From the NCBI GenBank assembly GCA_945860915.1, contig CAMARR010000010.1, positions 1 through 64,000 on the forward strand: a stretch of DNA of 64,000 nucleotides. Direction: 5' to 3'. This DNA comes from Candidatus Kuenenia stuttgartensis (lineage in GTDB: Bacteria; Planctomycetota; GCA-002687715; CAIWVZ01). Position numbers and translations under genes: made by a program. The notes beneath the pieces are model-generated. The model saw only the letters and a program-made list of their open reading frames with translations, had not been told where the DNA came from and made no database searches. Shown one piece after another: positions 15,250 to 21,935 of this stretch; position 1 is the first letter of the stretch; every line of letters starts with the position of its first letter.

Positions 15250-18200
15250 ATGAATAAAGTCACGTTCGTTGTCATGGCGGCCTTCGTTGGCTGCTTCACT
15301 GTTTCGTTGGTTGCACAAGATCGTCAGCCGAGGCCGCCGAGGCCGCGTGCACGGCCGCTCTTCAGTCCAACCGAGAACGACTCTTCACCGCAGGGCCCAC
15401 AGGCTCCGACCACCCGCGTTTCTCCGGACTCGCGATTGGCGGCGCCACCCGATGCACCCAAGGTAGAGCCGAGCGATCCGATTGACGCGCTCTTTTCACG
15501 GCTTGATCGGTTTCCGCAAAAGGCCGGCAAGGACGCCGCAGACGCACTTTCAGGGCTCGGCGCCAACGTTGCCGAGCGACTTGTCGCCGCACTCGGATCC
15601 AATGACTGGCGTGTTCAAGCGGGGTCGTCCCACGCACTTGCCGAGATGAAATGGACTTCCGCTGCGCCCGCACTCGTTAGGGCGATTCGCGAGCCAACGA
15701 ATCGTGCGGGTCTTCCGTGGCTCATGGACTCGTTGGTGCGTCTTGACCCCCTTATGGGTCCCGCTGAAGTGATGCCCTTCGTCACCTCGTCAGCGGGTGG
15801 AGTGCGCGAAGCGGCCATGAAGGCGATGCCAGCAGTCCTCGATGCGCGGTACGCCGACCAGGTCCGCGCCCTCTGTGAATCACAGAAGCCACAGATTCGG
15901 ACGACCGGGTTCATACTCCTCAGCCGAATTCCGGGAACAGCGGATCTTCCGATCTGGATCGACGCGTTCCTAGATCCTGAAGTCGCTGTCGCAGATACGT
16001 CATCGCGATATCTTGCGACCCACGCGACCAAAGATGGAATCACGAAGCTTGTCGCGCTCGCCAAAGACGGCGTGATGCGATCTTCCGCCTATTCGATGCT
16101 GACGCTCGCGGGTGTCGAGGAAACCGCAAGAGGCTGGGTGATTCCGGAAGACGATGCGGCCCTTCGTGAACGAGCCCTCAAATTCCTGCAGGGCGATGAT
16201 CCGTTCCACCGGGCGAGCGCCGCGGTGCTCCTTGCGAGCGTTGCCTTCCGTGCGCGCGATGCAGCGTTACGTGACATTGCAGATCGATATCTCGTGCCCA
16301 TTCTTCTCGACGCCGTCGCCGGTGGCACGTTCTTTAATGACTACGTTGCTGTAGAGGGTGCTGTATTTCGTCGACTTGAACTCTTGTCCGGTGAGTCGTT
16401 TGGGCCGAATGCCCCGAAATGGCGGTCGTGGTGGACTAGATCGCGAGACGCGTTTAAGGCGCGTCGGCGCATTGTCGCGATCTCGGCAAATGATCTTATC
16501 GCTGGATCCGTAATGGTTCGGGTGACGGATGACCTCGGTCGCACGCGCGCCGCGTTTCTGACCGGCGACCTTGCGGATTCGCAGCGAGTGCGCCCTGGAG
16601 CTCCGCTATGGCTCTCGAACGAGGCATGTGTGGATCTTGCCGCGGAATTCGCGACATCGAAGATCCTCGAGATGACTCCCGCGCGCGGTGATGCCCCAGG
16701 GGGCGATGGATGGGAAGTTATCGTCCGGCGTGGGGCAGACACGACGATTCGTCGCGGATTCGGGGCCCCTCAGGGGCATGTTCTCGCTCTTGTCGAGTAC
16801 ATACTGAAACTCCATCGCGACTTGGCATGGCAGCGATTCGCACCCGTCGAGCCGGCTGCGCGAAAGAAGTGGCTTGACGCCGAATCCACGGCGAGATCAG
16901 GTCTCGATTCGCTTGCACGTGAGCGACGCTTAGTTGACTCCGCATTGACGGGATTCGCCGAGCTTGGCCGCGAGGGCCGGATTGCAGCAGCCGAGGTCAT
17001 GGCTTCAGCGCCGGTGTCATGGCGCTTGGCCGAAGCGCCGCGCTTGGCGTCGTTGTTGCGCGCAGAAAAGGGAATGACCGACGAAGCGCGGCTCCTCGTT
17101 GAAGCTTTGACAGCATCCCATGATGTTCGTATCCGCGACGCAGTCCTCGATACACTTTCGAAGTACCCTGGCTTCCGCGCTGAGGAGTCTCTTCGCGCTT
17201 ACCTGCTAGCTGCGCCCACACCCGCGGCTGTCGCTGCTCTTCGTAGCCCCGCAGTCGGCCTCAGATCGGTGGCCGCCGAGGATCTCGGTCGTCGCGTCGG
17301 TGATCCGGCGTCCGCTGATGCCCTGATCGATGGCTTGCGTGATTTCGAGCCCCGCGTCCGAGAAGCATGTGTCCGCGCTCTCGCCAAGCTGGGCGATCCG
17401 AGGACTCCCGCGCTTCTCGAGACCGTGCTCGCATCAGGGGATCGTGGGCTTCGGGCACGCGCGATCGAAGCTCTTGGCGGAACGGGTGGTGATGCCGTCG
17501 TTCCGAGACTCATCGAAATTTTTCGTGACGGATCGGTTCCGGATCGATTCGCCGTGATGCGAGCGCTTCAGGCGTCCGGTGGACGTCGCGCGGCCATCGC
17601 CCTTGGAACTCTGGCGCGCGAGGTCATGGACACCGCACAGGCGGCCGAAGCTGTAACAACGCTCGGCCGTATGAGGACCCGAGCGGCAGCCGACGAGGTT
17701 GCGACGCTTTTCAAAAAGTCGAAGGATCGTGCTCTGAGACTCCAGGCAGCGATGACGCTTGGCGAGCTCTTAGGCGCAGAATCCGTCGAAACTTTGGCGC
17801 CGTCCCTCACGGGCGATGACAAAGACTTGGCCCGTGTAGTCGCGCTAACGCTTGGCCGCGCAGGAGCGAAAGAGGCACTGCCACATTTGCTTGAATTCAT
17901 GAGGAATCCCGCCGGGGATTCTCCGGCAGAGATTGCATTCCGACGCCTGACTTTTTTTGCATCGCAGGCGAAGTCGCCAGCGGTACGGTTCACAGATTGT
18001 GAACGGTGGGTCCTTGAACATGGCGACCGTGATCGGGCCGACTGGCTGCGATCGGCTCTACGGGCGGCCGACCTCGATCCGACGGCATGCGAGTCATACT
18101 TTGCTAAGAGCCGCCTTGATCGCCGCGCAGTGAGCGTCTTGATCAAAGCCATCGCCGCATCGAACCCAGGTTTGCGTGAGGGCGCAGATGCCATCTTGCG

Positions 18201-18387
18201 TCGCACGAGTGGTCTTAGCCTCGATGCCTTTGCACCCGATCCGTCATCGGAAGACATCGCGGCGCATCGCGATGCTTACGATCGGTGGGCGACGACACGC
18301 GCCGAACTTATTGGCGAAGGGCTCGTCGTTCCAGCGAATCAGATCATCGAGGAATCCCCGGAATCGCGCCCGGCTCGGAATCGCTAG
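15250..18387 (+). CDS. Exported HEAT-repeat (PBS-lyase-like) protein, 1045 aa
   Basis: Signal peptide MNKVTFVVMAAFVGCFTVSLVAQ; repeats such as SADALIDGLRDFEPRVREACVRALAKLGDPRTPALLETVL. Confidence 0.8.
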   Translation: MNKVTFVVMAAFVGCFTVSLVAQDRQPRPPRPRARPLFSPTENDSSPQGPQAPTTRVSPDSRLAAPPDAPKVEPSDPIDALFSRLDRFPQKAGKDAADALSGLGANVAERLVAALGSNDWRVQAGSSHALAEMKWTSAAPALVRAIREPTNRAGLPWLMDSLVRLDPLMGPAEVMPFVTSSAGGVREAAMKAMPAVLDARYADQVRALCESQKPQIRTTGFILLSRIPGTADLPIWIDAFLDPEVAVADTSSRYLATHATKDGITKLVALAKDGVMRSSAYSMLTLAGVEETARGWVIPEDDAALRERALKFLQGDDPFHRASAAVLLASVAFRARDAALRDIADRYLVPILLDAVAGGTFFNDYVAVEGAVFRRLELLSGESFGPNAPKWRSWWTRSRDAFKARRRIVAISANDLIAGSVMVRVTDDLGRTRAAFLTGDLADSQRVRPGAPLWLSNEACVDLAAEFATSKILEMTPARGDAPGGDGWEVIVRRGADTTIRRGFGAPQGHVLALVEYILKLHRDLAWQRFAPVEPAARKKWLDAESTARSGLDSLARERRLVDSALTGFAELGREGRIAAAEVMASAPVSWRLAEAPRLASLLRAEKGMTDEARLLVEALTASHDVRIRDAVLDTLSKYPGFRAEESLRAYLLAAPTPAAVAALRSPAVGLRSVAAEDLGRRVGDPASADALIDGLRDFEPRVREACVRALAKLGDPRTPALLETVLASGDRGLRARAIEALGGTGGDAVVPRLIEIFRDGSVPDRFAVMRALQASGGRRAAIALGTLAREVMDTAQAAEAVTTLGRMRTRAAADEVATLFKKSKDRALRLQAAMTLGELLGAESVETLAPSLTGDDKDLARVVALTLGRAGAKEALPHLLEFMRNPAGDSPAEIAFRRLTFFASQAKSPAVRFTDCERWVLEHGDRDRADWLRSALRAADLDPTACESYFAKSRLDRRAVSVLIKAIAASNPGLREGADAILRRTSGLSLDAFAPDPSSEDIAAHRDAYDRWATTRAELIGEGLVVPANQIIEESPESRPARNR

Positions 18388-19001
18388 GCCGACCAAGCCG
18401 CGAGCAAATGACGACACTGCGCGACGATACTCTCGTCGCCTTGCGCGTTTTCGATCACCACATCGCATTGTGATCTTTTGGCATCAAGAGGCATTTGCGC
18501 CGCCTCGCGACTCCGATGTTCCTCCGATGTCCACCCGCGACTGGCGGCCGTGCGCGCATGTCGCACAGGCTCCGGGGCGTCAACAAAAACGCGGTGCGTG
18601 CATGCGTCATTGAGCGGGCCTTCGAGCAGGAGCGGAACGTCGAGGACGATTGCCACGGGAGGCGGGGATTCTTCGAGCGCTGTTCGCAGGTCGGAACGGA
18701 TGAGGTCCGAAACAGCTGGATGCACGATTGCTTCGAGTTCATGGCGAGCCTTCGTTGCGGCCGGGAGAGGTCCGAAGACGAGCTGCCCGAGGCGGGCTCG
18801 GTCGACCGATTTGTCGTCGGCGAGGATTCCTGCCCCAAATTTTTTCTGGAGGGCCTCCCGGATCTCGGGCAGTCTGAGCACCGCGTGGGCGGTGCGGTCC
18901 GCGTCGATGACGCGTGCCCCGAGACTGGCAAAACTGCGAGTTACAGCCGATTTACCTGCACCGATACCCCCGCAGATCCCGATGATGGGCGTCGAAGCCA
19001 T
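18384..19001 (-). CDS. coaE: Dephospho-CoA kinase
   Basis: P-loop IIGICGGIGAGKSAVTRSFASLGARVIDADRTAH. Confidence 0.93.
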   Translation of the reverse strand: MASTPIIGICGGIGAGKSAVTRSFASLGARVIDADRTAHAVLRLPEIREALQKKFGAGILADDKSVDRARLGQLVFGPLPAATKARHELEAIVHPAVSDLIRSDLRTALEESPPPVAIVLDVPLLLEGPLNDACTHRVFVDAPEPVRHARTAASRGWTSEEHRSREAAQMPLDAKRSQCDVVIENAQGDESIVAQCRHLLAAWSA

Positions 19002-19054: not shown

Positions 19055-19084
19055 TTGACGGAAGTTCGGATGTGTCCGTAGAAT
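19055..19084 (+). promoter_or_regulatory. Candidate sigma70-type promoter for the 19191-20459 gene
   Basis: TTGACG (19055-19060), 18 bp spacer, TAGAAT (19079-19084). Confidence 0.55.
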
Positions 19085-19190
19085 CCGCCCCGCTTCGCTC
19101 GGATCTCTCCGTTGGAACCGGCCTGCCATGTTGCGAGCGACAACGGGGTAGGCCCTGTGAATGAAACGCCCTTCGGGGCGGAGGAATCGG

Positions 19191-20459
19191 ATGTCTCATT
19201 CGGAACGCGGCGCGGTCCATATCGCGTGGCTCATCGCCGTCCTTTTGGTCGCATTGGGTGTTACTGCATTCGGTTGGAATGCAGCGGCCGAGCGCGACAA
19301 GAATGCAGCCGAGGCTAAGAAGGCCAAGGCCGATCACAAGCAGCTCCGCCTAGATGGCGAATGGAATGCAGCTTGCTTCGACAGGCTGTCGAAGATCGTC
19401 GGCGGTGGCATTCCGAACACGCCCCCGGCGCTCGACGTCGCTTCAGAGCCGTTGCCTGATGCCGCCGAGGAGAAGTACGTCGGTAAGTACATTGCACTCG
19501 CAAAGAACTCTCTCAAAGACGCTTACAAAGCTGTCGGCGATGAATCCGCGAGCACGATGACACTTGTCGAGGGCCTCCAGATCCTCGTCAACCGTTACAA
19601 GACCGCGACGGGCGAAGTCGCCGCATTGCAGACGCAAGTCAAGACTCTCGAAGCGGAAGTTGCGGGTAAGACCGCAGCCGTCGCCGAGGGCGATAAGCGC
19701 CGCGCGGCGGACCTCGATCAGCTCAAGCAAGAGACAGACAATTCGCAAGCGCGTCTCCAAGGCCAAATCGCACAGCTCACCCAAGAGCGTGACGATGCCC
19801 AGGCACAGAACCGCAAGCTCACCGACGAAACTGCGAAAACGAAGGACGACTCTAATAAGGAGGTCGTCGCTGCTCGAAACACAATGAAGTCGATGGACGC
19901 GCAGCTCGCAGCGATCAAGAACCAGGTTCAGGTCTCGAAGGAATCCGAGGCGCCAGACGGCAAGATTCTCGCCGTCAACCGTGCGATGAAGACCTGCTTC
20001 ATCAATCTTGGGTCCAAGGACAAGGTGTGGCGCGGTGCCGCCTTCCGCACGTACCAGATCCGCAAAGGCAACACGAAGGTCTTCACGGGTCGCCTCGTGG
20101 TGGTCTCGATCGGCGCTGAACGCGCTGAGTGCGTGATCGAATCCGAACAGTCCGGTGAGATGGTGGGAGAGGGCGACCTCATCCTGTCGCCCATCTTCGA
20201 CAAGTCGAAGACGCTTCACTTCGTGATCCTCGGTGAGCTCCCGGGCCGTTACAACCGCGAGATGGCCGCGAAGATTCTCGAGTCCCATGGCGCGAAGGTT
20301 GACACCAAGGTCACAGTCGAAACGGACTTCGTGATCGTCGGCATCAAGGACGGTGCAGATGGCGCTGAACCCGCCGAATCAGACGACTACAAGAAGGCCC
20401 AAGGCTGGTCAATCCCGGTCCTTCGCGCCCGCGATCTCGAGCCCTTCCTTCAGTTCTGA
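19191..20459 (+). CDS. Membrane-anchored coiled-coil protein with C-terminal BRCT-like domain
   Basis: N-terminal TM (HIAWLIAVLLVALGVTAFGW), long coiled coil, C-term FVILGELPGRYNREMAAKILESHGAKVDTKVTVETDFVIVG...YKKAQGWSIPVLRARDLEPFL. Confidence 0.7.
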   Translation: MSHSERGAVHIAWLIAVLLVALGVTAFGWNAAAERDKNAAEAKKAKADHKQLRLDGEWNAACFDRLSKIVGGGIPNTPPALDVASEPLPDAAEEKYVGKYIALAKNSLKDAYKAVGDESASTMTLVEGLQILVNRYKTATGEVAALQTQVKTLEAEVAGKTAAVAEGDKRRAADLDQLKQETDNSQARLQGQIAQLTQERDDAQAQNRKLTDETAKTKDDSNKEVVAARNTMKSMDAQLAAIKNQVQVSKESEAPDGKILAVNRAMKTCFINLGSKDKVWRGAAFRTYQIRKGNTKVFTGRLVVVSIGAERAECVIESEQSGEMVGEGDLILSPIFDKSKTLHFVILGELPGRYNREMAAKILESHGAKVDTKVTVETDFVIVGIKDGADGAEPAESDDYKKAQGWSIPVLRARDLEPFLQF

Positions 20460-20472
20460 GGTAATGTGACAC

Positions 20473-20514
20473 GCAGGGCCCTCGTACCGAACGGTGCGGG
20501 GGCCTTCTGCTTTT
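20473..20514 (+). terminator. Intrinsic terminator after the coiled-coil/BRCT-like gene
   Basis: GGCCCTCGTACCG-AA-CGGTGCGGGGGCC (two G-U pairs), then TTCTGCTTTTC. Confidence 0.75.
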
Positions 20515-20534: not shown

Positions 20535-21935
20535 ATGACCGCCAAACCAGCCATGACATCGAACGGAGAACCCCAAGTCGAGTCAACGCGCATGAGCTTC
20601 TTCGATCACCTCGAAGAACTCCGCCGCCGGGTCTGGCGTTCTGCCATCGTCACAGGGGTCATCTTCGCCCTAGTTACGACCTACGGTGACGAATGTATGC
20701 GGCTGATCGTCGCGCCGTATCAGGATGCGATGCGTGACTTGGGGCTAGACCCGACACTTAAGTACGACTCTCCCACTCAACCCGTCGTGACCTGGTTTAA
20801 GGTCACCATGTTCGTGAGCTTGATCTTTGCCGCCCCGTATTGGGTGGCTCAGATTTGGGGCTTCATCTCAGCCGGGCTCTATGAAAAGGAGAAACGATGG
20901 GTCGGTCGCTTCGTGCCCTTCTCAGTCCTTCTCTTCTTTGGCGGTGTGGTCTTTGGATACACGCTCTTGTTGCCTATCGCGCTTCGATACATGGTCGGAT
21001 TCGCGCCCGCTGACATTGCACAGGGGTGGATTGGACTCGATCAGTACTTGAGTCTGTTCGCAGCGCTGACGTTGCTTCTTGGCGCCACGTTCCTAATGCC
21101 CTTGTTCATGGTTGGGCTAGCAAAAGTCGGCATTCTCGAGCCTGATACCTATAGAAGTTATCGACGCGTGACGATTCTCGTTATCTTCATCGTGTCCGGC
21201 ATCCTCACCCCGCCCGATCCGATCACACAGTCGCTAGTTGCCATTCCGCTGTGTTTCCTCTTTGAGTTCGGGATCATCTTGTCATCGCTGGCGACCGGGA
21301 AGGGACTTCCAAGCTTCAAACCGAAGGATCTCTATCGCAACCTGCGAATCCCGTTGGTCATCGTGGGGCTCTTGTTCGTTGTGCGTGAACCGCTGTTAAA
21401 GGCATGGAAACGGGTCGACGCGGACGGCAAAGTTGAGTCTGCCGCAACTGCCGTGGTCCCATGGCCAGAGGTCGGGGCGGCTGTGTTAGGTCTCGCGCCG
21501 ACTGCCGCACTGCGAATACAGGAGTCGCAGCTCGGGCGCGACTTCGTCGTCGTTGCCGAGGGGCGAATGGCCGTCCTGCGATTCACGTTGAGCAATGACG
21601 CACCGGTCATCGTGAATCCGCGACTAGGTGGCAATTCGTTTCGCGCGGTACGAGTTCAGTCGGGCGCCGTAGTTTGGAAGGCTGAGCCGTTGAGTGACTT
21701 GAATTATGGCGACGTGCTTCCGAAACTCCGGAATGCGGTCTTCGCCGGTTCTGCTGATTCGTTTAATACGGCGACCACGATTCTTGATCTCCTCGAATCA
21801 CCAAGACGCCCGGCGACTCGCCCAGTTATCGCCGAGATTACCGATGAACTGCGGTCTGAGTACAAGAAGAGGCTCGAGGCGATGATTGCGTCATCCAGCG
21901 ATCAGAAGCTCCCTTTGGTCCAATCACCCAAGTAA
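20535..21935 (+). CDS. tatC: Sec-independent translocase TatC with about 195 aa C-terminal extension
   Basis: SFFDHLEELRRRVWRSAIV; PYWVAQIWGFISAGLYEKEK; SGILTPPDPITQ. Confidence 0.92.
   Translation: MTAKPAMTSNGEPQVESTRMSFFDHLEELRRRVWRSAIVTGVIFALVTTYGDECMRLIVAPYQDAMRDLGLDPTLKYDSPTQPVVTWFKVTMFVSLIFAAPYWVAQIWGFISAGLYEKEKRWVGRFVPFSVLLFFGGVVFGYTLLLPIALRYMVGFAPADIAQGWIGLDQYLSLFAALTLLLGATFLMPLFMVGLAKVGILEPDTYRSYRRVTILVIFIVSGILTPPDPITQSLVAIPLCFLFEFGIILSSLATGKGLPSFKPKDLYRNLRIPLVIVGLLFVVREPLLKAWKRVDADGKVESAATAVVPWPEVGAAVLGLAPTAALRIQESQLGRDFVVVAEGRMAVLRFTLSNDAPVIVNPRLGGNSFRAVRVQSGAVVWKAEPLSDLNYGDVLPKLRNAVFAGSADSFNTATTILDLLESPRRPATRPVIAEITDELRSEYKKRLEAMIASSSDQKLPLVQSPK

Follow-up and report, generated by a model that had tools for sequence, protein, structure and literature searches.

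A gene at positions 19,191 to 20,459 of the window (the whole 64,000-nucleotide stretch of Candidatus Kuenenia stuttgartensis DNA that was analysed) encodes a 422-residue protein that, judged by profile comparison, ends in a genuine BRCT domain. It belongs to an unnamed, near-phylum-wide family of Planctomycetota with a conserved architecture of one transmembrane (TM) helix, a helical stalk, a small barrel and the BRCT domain. BRCT domains are classed as cytoplasmic or nuclear DNA-damage modules, and to our knowledge none was known outside the cytoplasm. In this family the phosphate-pocket residues are lost, and the charge bias around the TM helix makes it likely that the head lies outside the cytoplasm (N-in/C-out). 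We consider it reasonably probable that the protein is an envelope stalk-and-head scaffold in which the BRCT is a protein-docking module, not a reader of DNA or phosphopeptides. A first-pass annotation of the same DNA had proposed such a protein-interaction or envelope-scaffold use of the BRCT fold, and it is the best-supported reading in view of pocket loss, charge bias and conserved architecture. The features of the locus are, in window coordinates:

18384..19001, minus strand: coaE, divergent neighbour (context; domain scans)
19055..19084, plus strand: promoter-like site TTGACG-18-TAGAAT (consensus match; both hexamers identical in two congeners, three genomes)
19180..19184, plus strand: Shine-Dalgarno GGAGG (sequence; kept in two congeners)
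19191..20459, plus strand: coding sequence, 422 aa, planctomycete TM-stalk-barrel-BRCT protein (open reading frame, homologue comparison)
19212..19277, plus strand: single TM helix near the N-terminus, spanning roughly residues 8-29; orientation predicted as N-in/C-out (from the charge bias of the family, compared with MreC and YajC)
19278..19949, plus strand: helical stalk, residues 30-253; a coiled coil for the family as a whole (length and periodicity across the family)
19953..20198, plus strand: small FlgT_C-like beta barrel, residues 255-336, containing Cys269 and Cys314 (PF16538 matches in 15/57 homologues; cysteine co-occurrence)
20208..20456, plus strand: BRCT domain of LigA/RFC1 type without phosphate-pocket residues, residues 340-422 (Pfam, profile-profile and PDB profile searches)
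20475..20506, plus strand: terminator-like hairpin between the BRCT-protein gene and tatC (sequence)
20535..21935, plus strand: tatC, the next gene in most loci (context; domain scans)

Start site and expression signals

The open reading frame is present as first annotated. In an alignment of three genomes, both the ATG at 19191 and its GGAGG Shine-Dalgarno are kept in two congeners, which a scan of genome contigs had found, whereas an in-frame ATG upstream at 19161 is not; the start at 19191 is therefore correct. As for the promoter and terminator attributed to the gene, a promoter-like site and a terminator-like hairpin were found, so a monocistronic unit is plausible. The 5' leader also holds an inverted repeat, GTTGCGAGCGACAAC (19130-19144), identical in the two congeners; its central 13 bases occur only in same-genus loci, with one further near-match in the genome. 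A regulatory RNA in the leader was discarded as a candidate, given this restricted repeat core and the lack of a significant Rfam match.

Identity of the C-terminal domain

The proposal that the C-terminal ~80 residues form a BRCT domain was borne out by profile searches. PF00533, whose Pfam cut-off is 21.3 bits, matched the whole protein with 31.6 bits (residues 342-412) and the C-terminal 91 residues alone with 35.7 bits. Profile-profile comparison of the family's BRCT segment with 20 planctomycete LigA BRCTs gave a probability of 99.6% (E=1e-23, 72 columns), against 0.2-0.5% for five column shuffles and the barrel used as controls (0.3-0.5% and E of 0.1-0.2 for the shuffles). The BRCT profile of a divergent group of homologues reached 98.8% against the same LigA domains. 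The first-pass annotation had let its claim hang on sensitive searches of this kind, and the similarity they returned is strong. In a PDB profile search, all matches to E=0.1 were BRCT proteins, headed by LigA (1l7b, 8e-11) and RFC1 (6.5e-9) and including Mdb1, microcephalin and Rad4. PF00533 was matched at E<=0.1 by 54 of 57 homologues, and no NCBIfam model names the protein; its best matches there, apart from coiled-coil models, were LigA models.

Structure prediction was less informative on the BRCT topology of a four-stranded sheet with three helices (beta-alpha-beta-beta-alpha-beta-alpha). AlphaFold models of barrel plus BRCT and of BRCT alone, with the two congeners as the only relatives in the alignment, had pLDDT 57 and 48; the longer showed BRCT-compatible secondary structure without beta4, at that low pLDDT of 57. 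A Foldseek search with the first of these low-confidence models returned no match below E=0.05. Because the models are low-confidence and Foldseek came back empty, the fold and the barrel rest on sequence profiles. The absence of a confident BRCT model is what would speak for a small alpha/beta domain with a convergent likeness to BRCT. Such a look-alike is very improbable, since the profile match runs over the full length at E=1e-23 with shuffled controls at noise, nearly all homologues match PF00533 and the PDB matches are exclusively BRCT proteins.

As a genuine BRCT, the domain appears to descend from a LigA-type fold. With the LigA BRCT (PF00533; PDB 1l7b) it shares full-length profile homology and the same core, namely the beta1 hydrophobics and Gly, the GG/GA turn, V...V, T-D-F/Y-h-V-h-G, and the Ala and G-V of the alpha2-beta4 region. 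It differs in sitting on a TM-anchored stalk outside any DNA enzyme, in being without the Thr-Gly and Ser-x-Lys phosphate motifs and, in some lineages, in an inserted EF-hand-like loop.

Loss of the phosphate-binding residues

Phosphate-binding BRCT domains are characterized by Ser/Thr-Gly in the beta1-alpha1 loop and Thr/Ser-x-Lys at alpha2 (PMC10386641). Among planctomycete LigA BRCTs the pocket residues are Thr in 20/20, Ser in 18/20 and Lys in 19/20. Measured against the published determinants (PMC10386641), the family has almost neither motif: the position preceding the beta1 Gly usually holds Ala, Leu, Val or Ile and is Ser/Thr in only 3 of ~100 homologues, and the alpha2 Lys (position 399) lies outside the family's common residues. 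Fold positions are retained (G348, G367, V370, V374, T378, D379, G384, A403, G407 and V408). Because the phosphate-binding residues are lost, the BRCT most likely binds a protein partner via its surface. In twelve homologues, each from one of the 20 divergent loci, an EF-hand-like insert of DxDxDG type, for example IDLDGDGRSDR, lies between beta1 and alpha1 at the old phosphate site. This loop may bind calcium in the divergent lineages.

A family across Planctomycetota

Of 41 genomes covered by a first whole-genome search, 39 held a homologue. A 14-sequence profile gave matches in 396 of 399 Planctomycetota genomes; because the weakest of these are LigA itself, we use the count at E<=1e-12, about 330 of 399 genomes (our own count from the profile-search table). 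In the sampled genomes of families f27, f75, f95, f96 and f100 the best match was a frame of ~700 residues, through its BRCT portion only. In f27 (G115, G281) two BRCT frames of LigA size occur in one genome, and the barrel-BRCT family was not found in that lineage. Relatives sought in viral contigs and in plasmids were absent from both.

In all, 101 homologues were extracted in a first round and 20 divergent ones later, and counts over them are uncorrected for relatedness. In nearly all, a single TM at the very start of the protein precedes stalk, barrel and BRCT in that order, so the homologue survey that the annotation had called for finds the architecture conserved. Profile comparison joins the divergent and main groups into one family (100%, E=4.6e-41). 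A post-BRCT tail (YIGYKPQRRLF.PG...; SSTG.TS) is common to L124, L120, L127 and L132 and missing in most other homologues. A literature search of titles and abstracts returned nothing on a BRCT that is planctomycete, periplasmic or membrane-anchored.

Anchor, stalk and barrel

The window protein has a single hydrophobic TM at its N-terminus, as annotated. Several homologues (L003, L010, L013, L016, L019 and others) show a recurrent Arg-Gly-(Ala/Ser/Ile) before the TM that recalls a prepilin-type cleavage site, without the usual Glu at +5.

The predicted coiled coil applies to the family and not to the window member. Averaged over the family, stalk hydrophobicity has a sharp periodicity peak at 3.5-3.6 residues, and 93 of 99 members exceed the mean of their own shuffles (mean z 2.5); the window member's stalk lacks heptad periodicity (z -0.1). 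The family's stalk is low in Pro (0.4%) and Gly (2.5%), and the distance from N-terminus to barrel is tightly distributed (median 243 aa, IQR 239-251, single-copy loci). Since most relatives have a coiled coil, the stalk is probably oligomeric.

The FlgT-like barrel suggested for the middle segment found weak backing at family level. PF16538 (FlgT_C) was matched by 15 of 57 homologues with a best E of 4.9e-4, one homologue scoring 13.9 bits against a cut-off of 27, and the window barrel gave no match to it at E<=10. Cys269 and Cys314 occur together in 11 of the 14 homologues that have Cys269, against ~3.5 expected if independent (kinship uncorrected). This co-occurrence was not taken as proof of a disulfide in the barrel, because relatedness was uncorrected and other homologues have small hydrophobic residues at the two positions.

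In layout, and in layout only, the protein comes closest to MreC (PF04085), which likewise has an N-in single TM, a helical stalk and a beta-barrel head outside. Unlike the planctomycete protein, MreC has no BRCT; a separate mreC gene is present in the same genome, and PF04085 is absent among the 25 Pfam matches of the window protein to E=10. The FlgT C-terminal domain shares the weakly matched barrel motif, but here the barrel is fused to a stalk and a BRCT in a non-flagellar context. The TatA/TatB model PF02416 gave no Pfam match in the window protein, and the genome has separate TatA/B genes. By these comparisons the protein is a member of neither MreC, FlgT nor TatA/B.

Topology of the head and gene context

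A single charge rule served for the family and for MreC (C-out) and YajC (C-in) controls of same-phylum genomes; YajC took the place of TatA, for which 6 of 30 proteins could be read. Of 117 homologues, 86 had the more positive net flank charge ahead of the TM and 15 behind it, and in 16 the two flanks were equal. The corresponding before-to-after counts were 19:3 for MreC and 2:26 for YajC, so the family behaves like MreC and opposite to YajC, although the window member by itself is close to neutral on both sides of the TM (0 before, +1 after). When K and R alone are counted, the C side of the TM is richer (2.97 vs 1.69), since the stalk carries many charges of either sign; C-out is thus favoured by net charge and not by the K+R count. 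One homologue with apparently two TMs and a positive loop between them likewise gives C-out. Beyond the TM, Cys makes up 0.22% of residues, compared with 1.09% in cytosolic neighbours, an argument weakened for the head because LigA BRCTs are also Cys-poor (0.19%).

Domain scans showed a conserved gene block in which the BRCT-protein gene, tatC, ychF, argG and cinA diverge from rho, coaE and, in some loci, polA on the opposite strand. In the window tatC starts 75 bp past the BRCT-protein stop codon, and it is also the next gene, in the same orientation, in 43 of the 61 loci fetched besides, usually at a gap below 200 bp; five of the 18 loci without tatC next end less than 450 bp downstream. Several divergent lineages keep the gene beside polA, and only 3 of 20 divergent loci showed a tatC in their flanks. 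The window TatC has 466 aa, ~220 of them beyond the Pfam domain (residues 24-238), and its C-terminal extension has no family match. The protein encoded at 15250-18387 of the window has 1045 aa, HEAT repeats (PF13646) and a signal-like N-terminus. Essentiality data from transposon sequencing exist for Planctopirus limnophila, where DNA polymerase I is Plim_3011 (PMC10632474); judged by synteny, the gene next to it is the probable orthologue of the BRCT-protein gene.

These data bear on two other readings of the protein. If it inserted N-out/C-in, a cytoplasmic BRCT on a coiled coil would link the membrane to DNA or to a repair complex, which would suit the part that LigA and RFC1 BRCTs take in DNA binding, the adjoining polA of several lineages and the higher K+R count on the C side. 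We regard this as unlikely, given a net-charge bias that follows MreC and reverses YajC, the missing phosphate-pocket residues, the calcium-type insert at the phosphate site in some lineages and the scarcity of Cys after the TM. The frequent, closely spaced tatC downstream would instead fit a factor that works with TatC, for example as a receptor or scaffold on the outer face for folded proteins that are exported, a role compatible with an envelope scaffold. This is slightly less likely still: the block includes the housekeeping genes coaE, rho, polA, ychF, argG and cinA, so its order may be ancestral; the adjacency is rare in divergent loci; a terminator-like hairpin separates the two window genes; and the protein lacks a TatA/TatB match in a genome with ordinary TatA/B. 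A functional Tat link may exist, though the data do not require one.

A candidate envelope scaffold

In the envelope scaffold that we favour, the short N-terminal tail, positive in the family, would stay cytoplasmic and the one TM helix would anchor the protein in the inner membrane. The helical stalk would point outward and hold the head, made of the FlgT_C-like barrel and the BRCT, at a near-fixed distance, so that the BRCT could dock, most likely by its surface, a periplasmic protein partner. The loop at the emptied phosphate site has, in several lineages, an EF-hand-like insert of the calcium-binding type. How the family arose is a more tentative matter: early in the history of Planctomycetota a repair-type BRCT may have been taken into the periplasm and become part of a near-universal envelope scaffold, its phosphate site emptied and in several lineages given a calcium-type loop instead.

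If this is true, the protein would be the first extracytoplasmic BRCT known to us and a candidate part of the unusual envelope or division machinery of Planctomycetota. A pocket-less BRCT outside the cytoplasm across most of a phylum would be a clear case of fold reuse, and automatic BRCT labels on genes of the family would indicate the wrong process. The cell plan of Planctomycetota is unusual, and a near-phylum-wide, syntenic envelope protein without a named family would offer a concrete entry point into it.

Paralogous copies

Two copies of the gene are present in 18 loci, and the pairs suggest two subunits. Copies lie side by side in L066, L068, L069, L072, L073, L079, L093, L095, L111 and others, and in most pairs one copy has the longer stalk, for example 298 against 235 aa.
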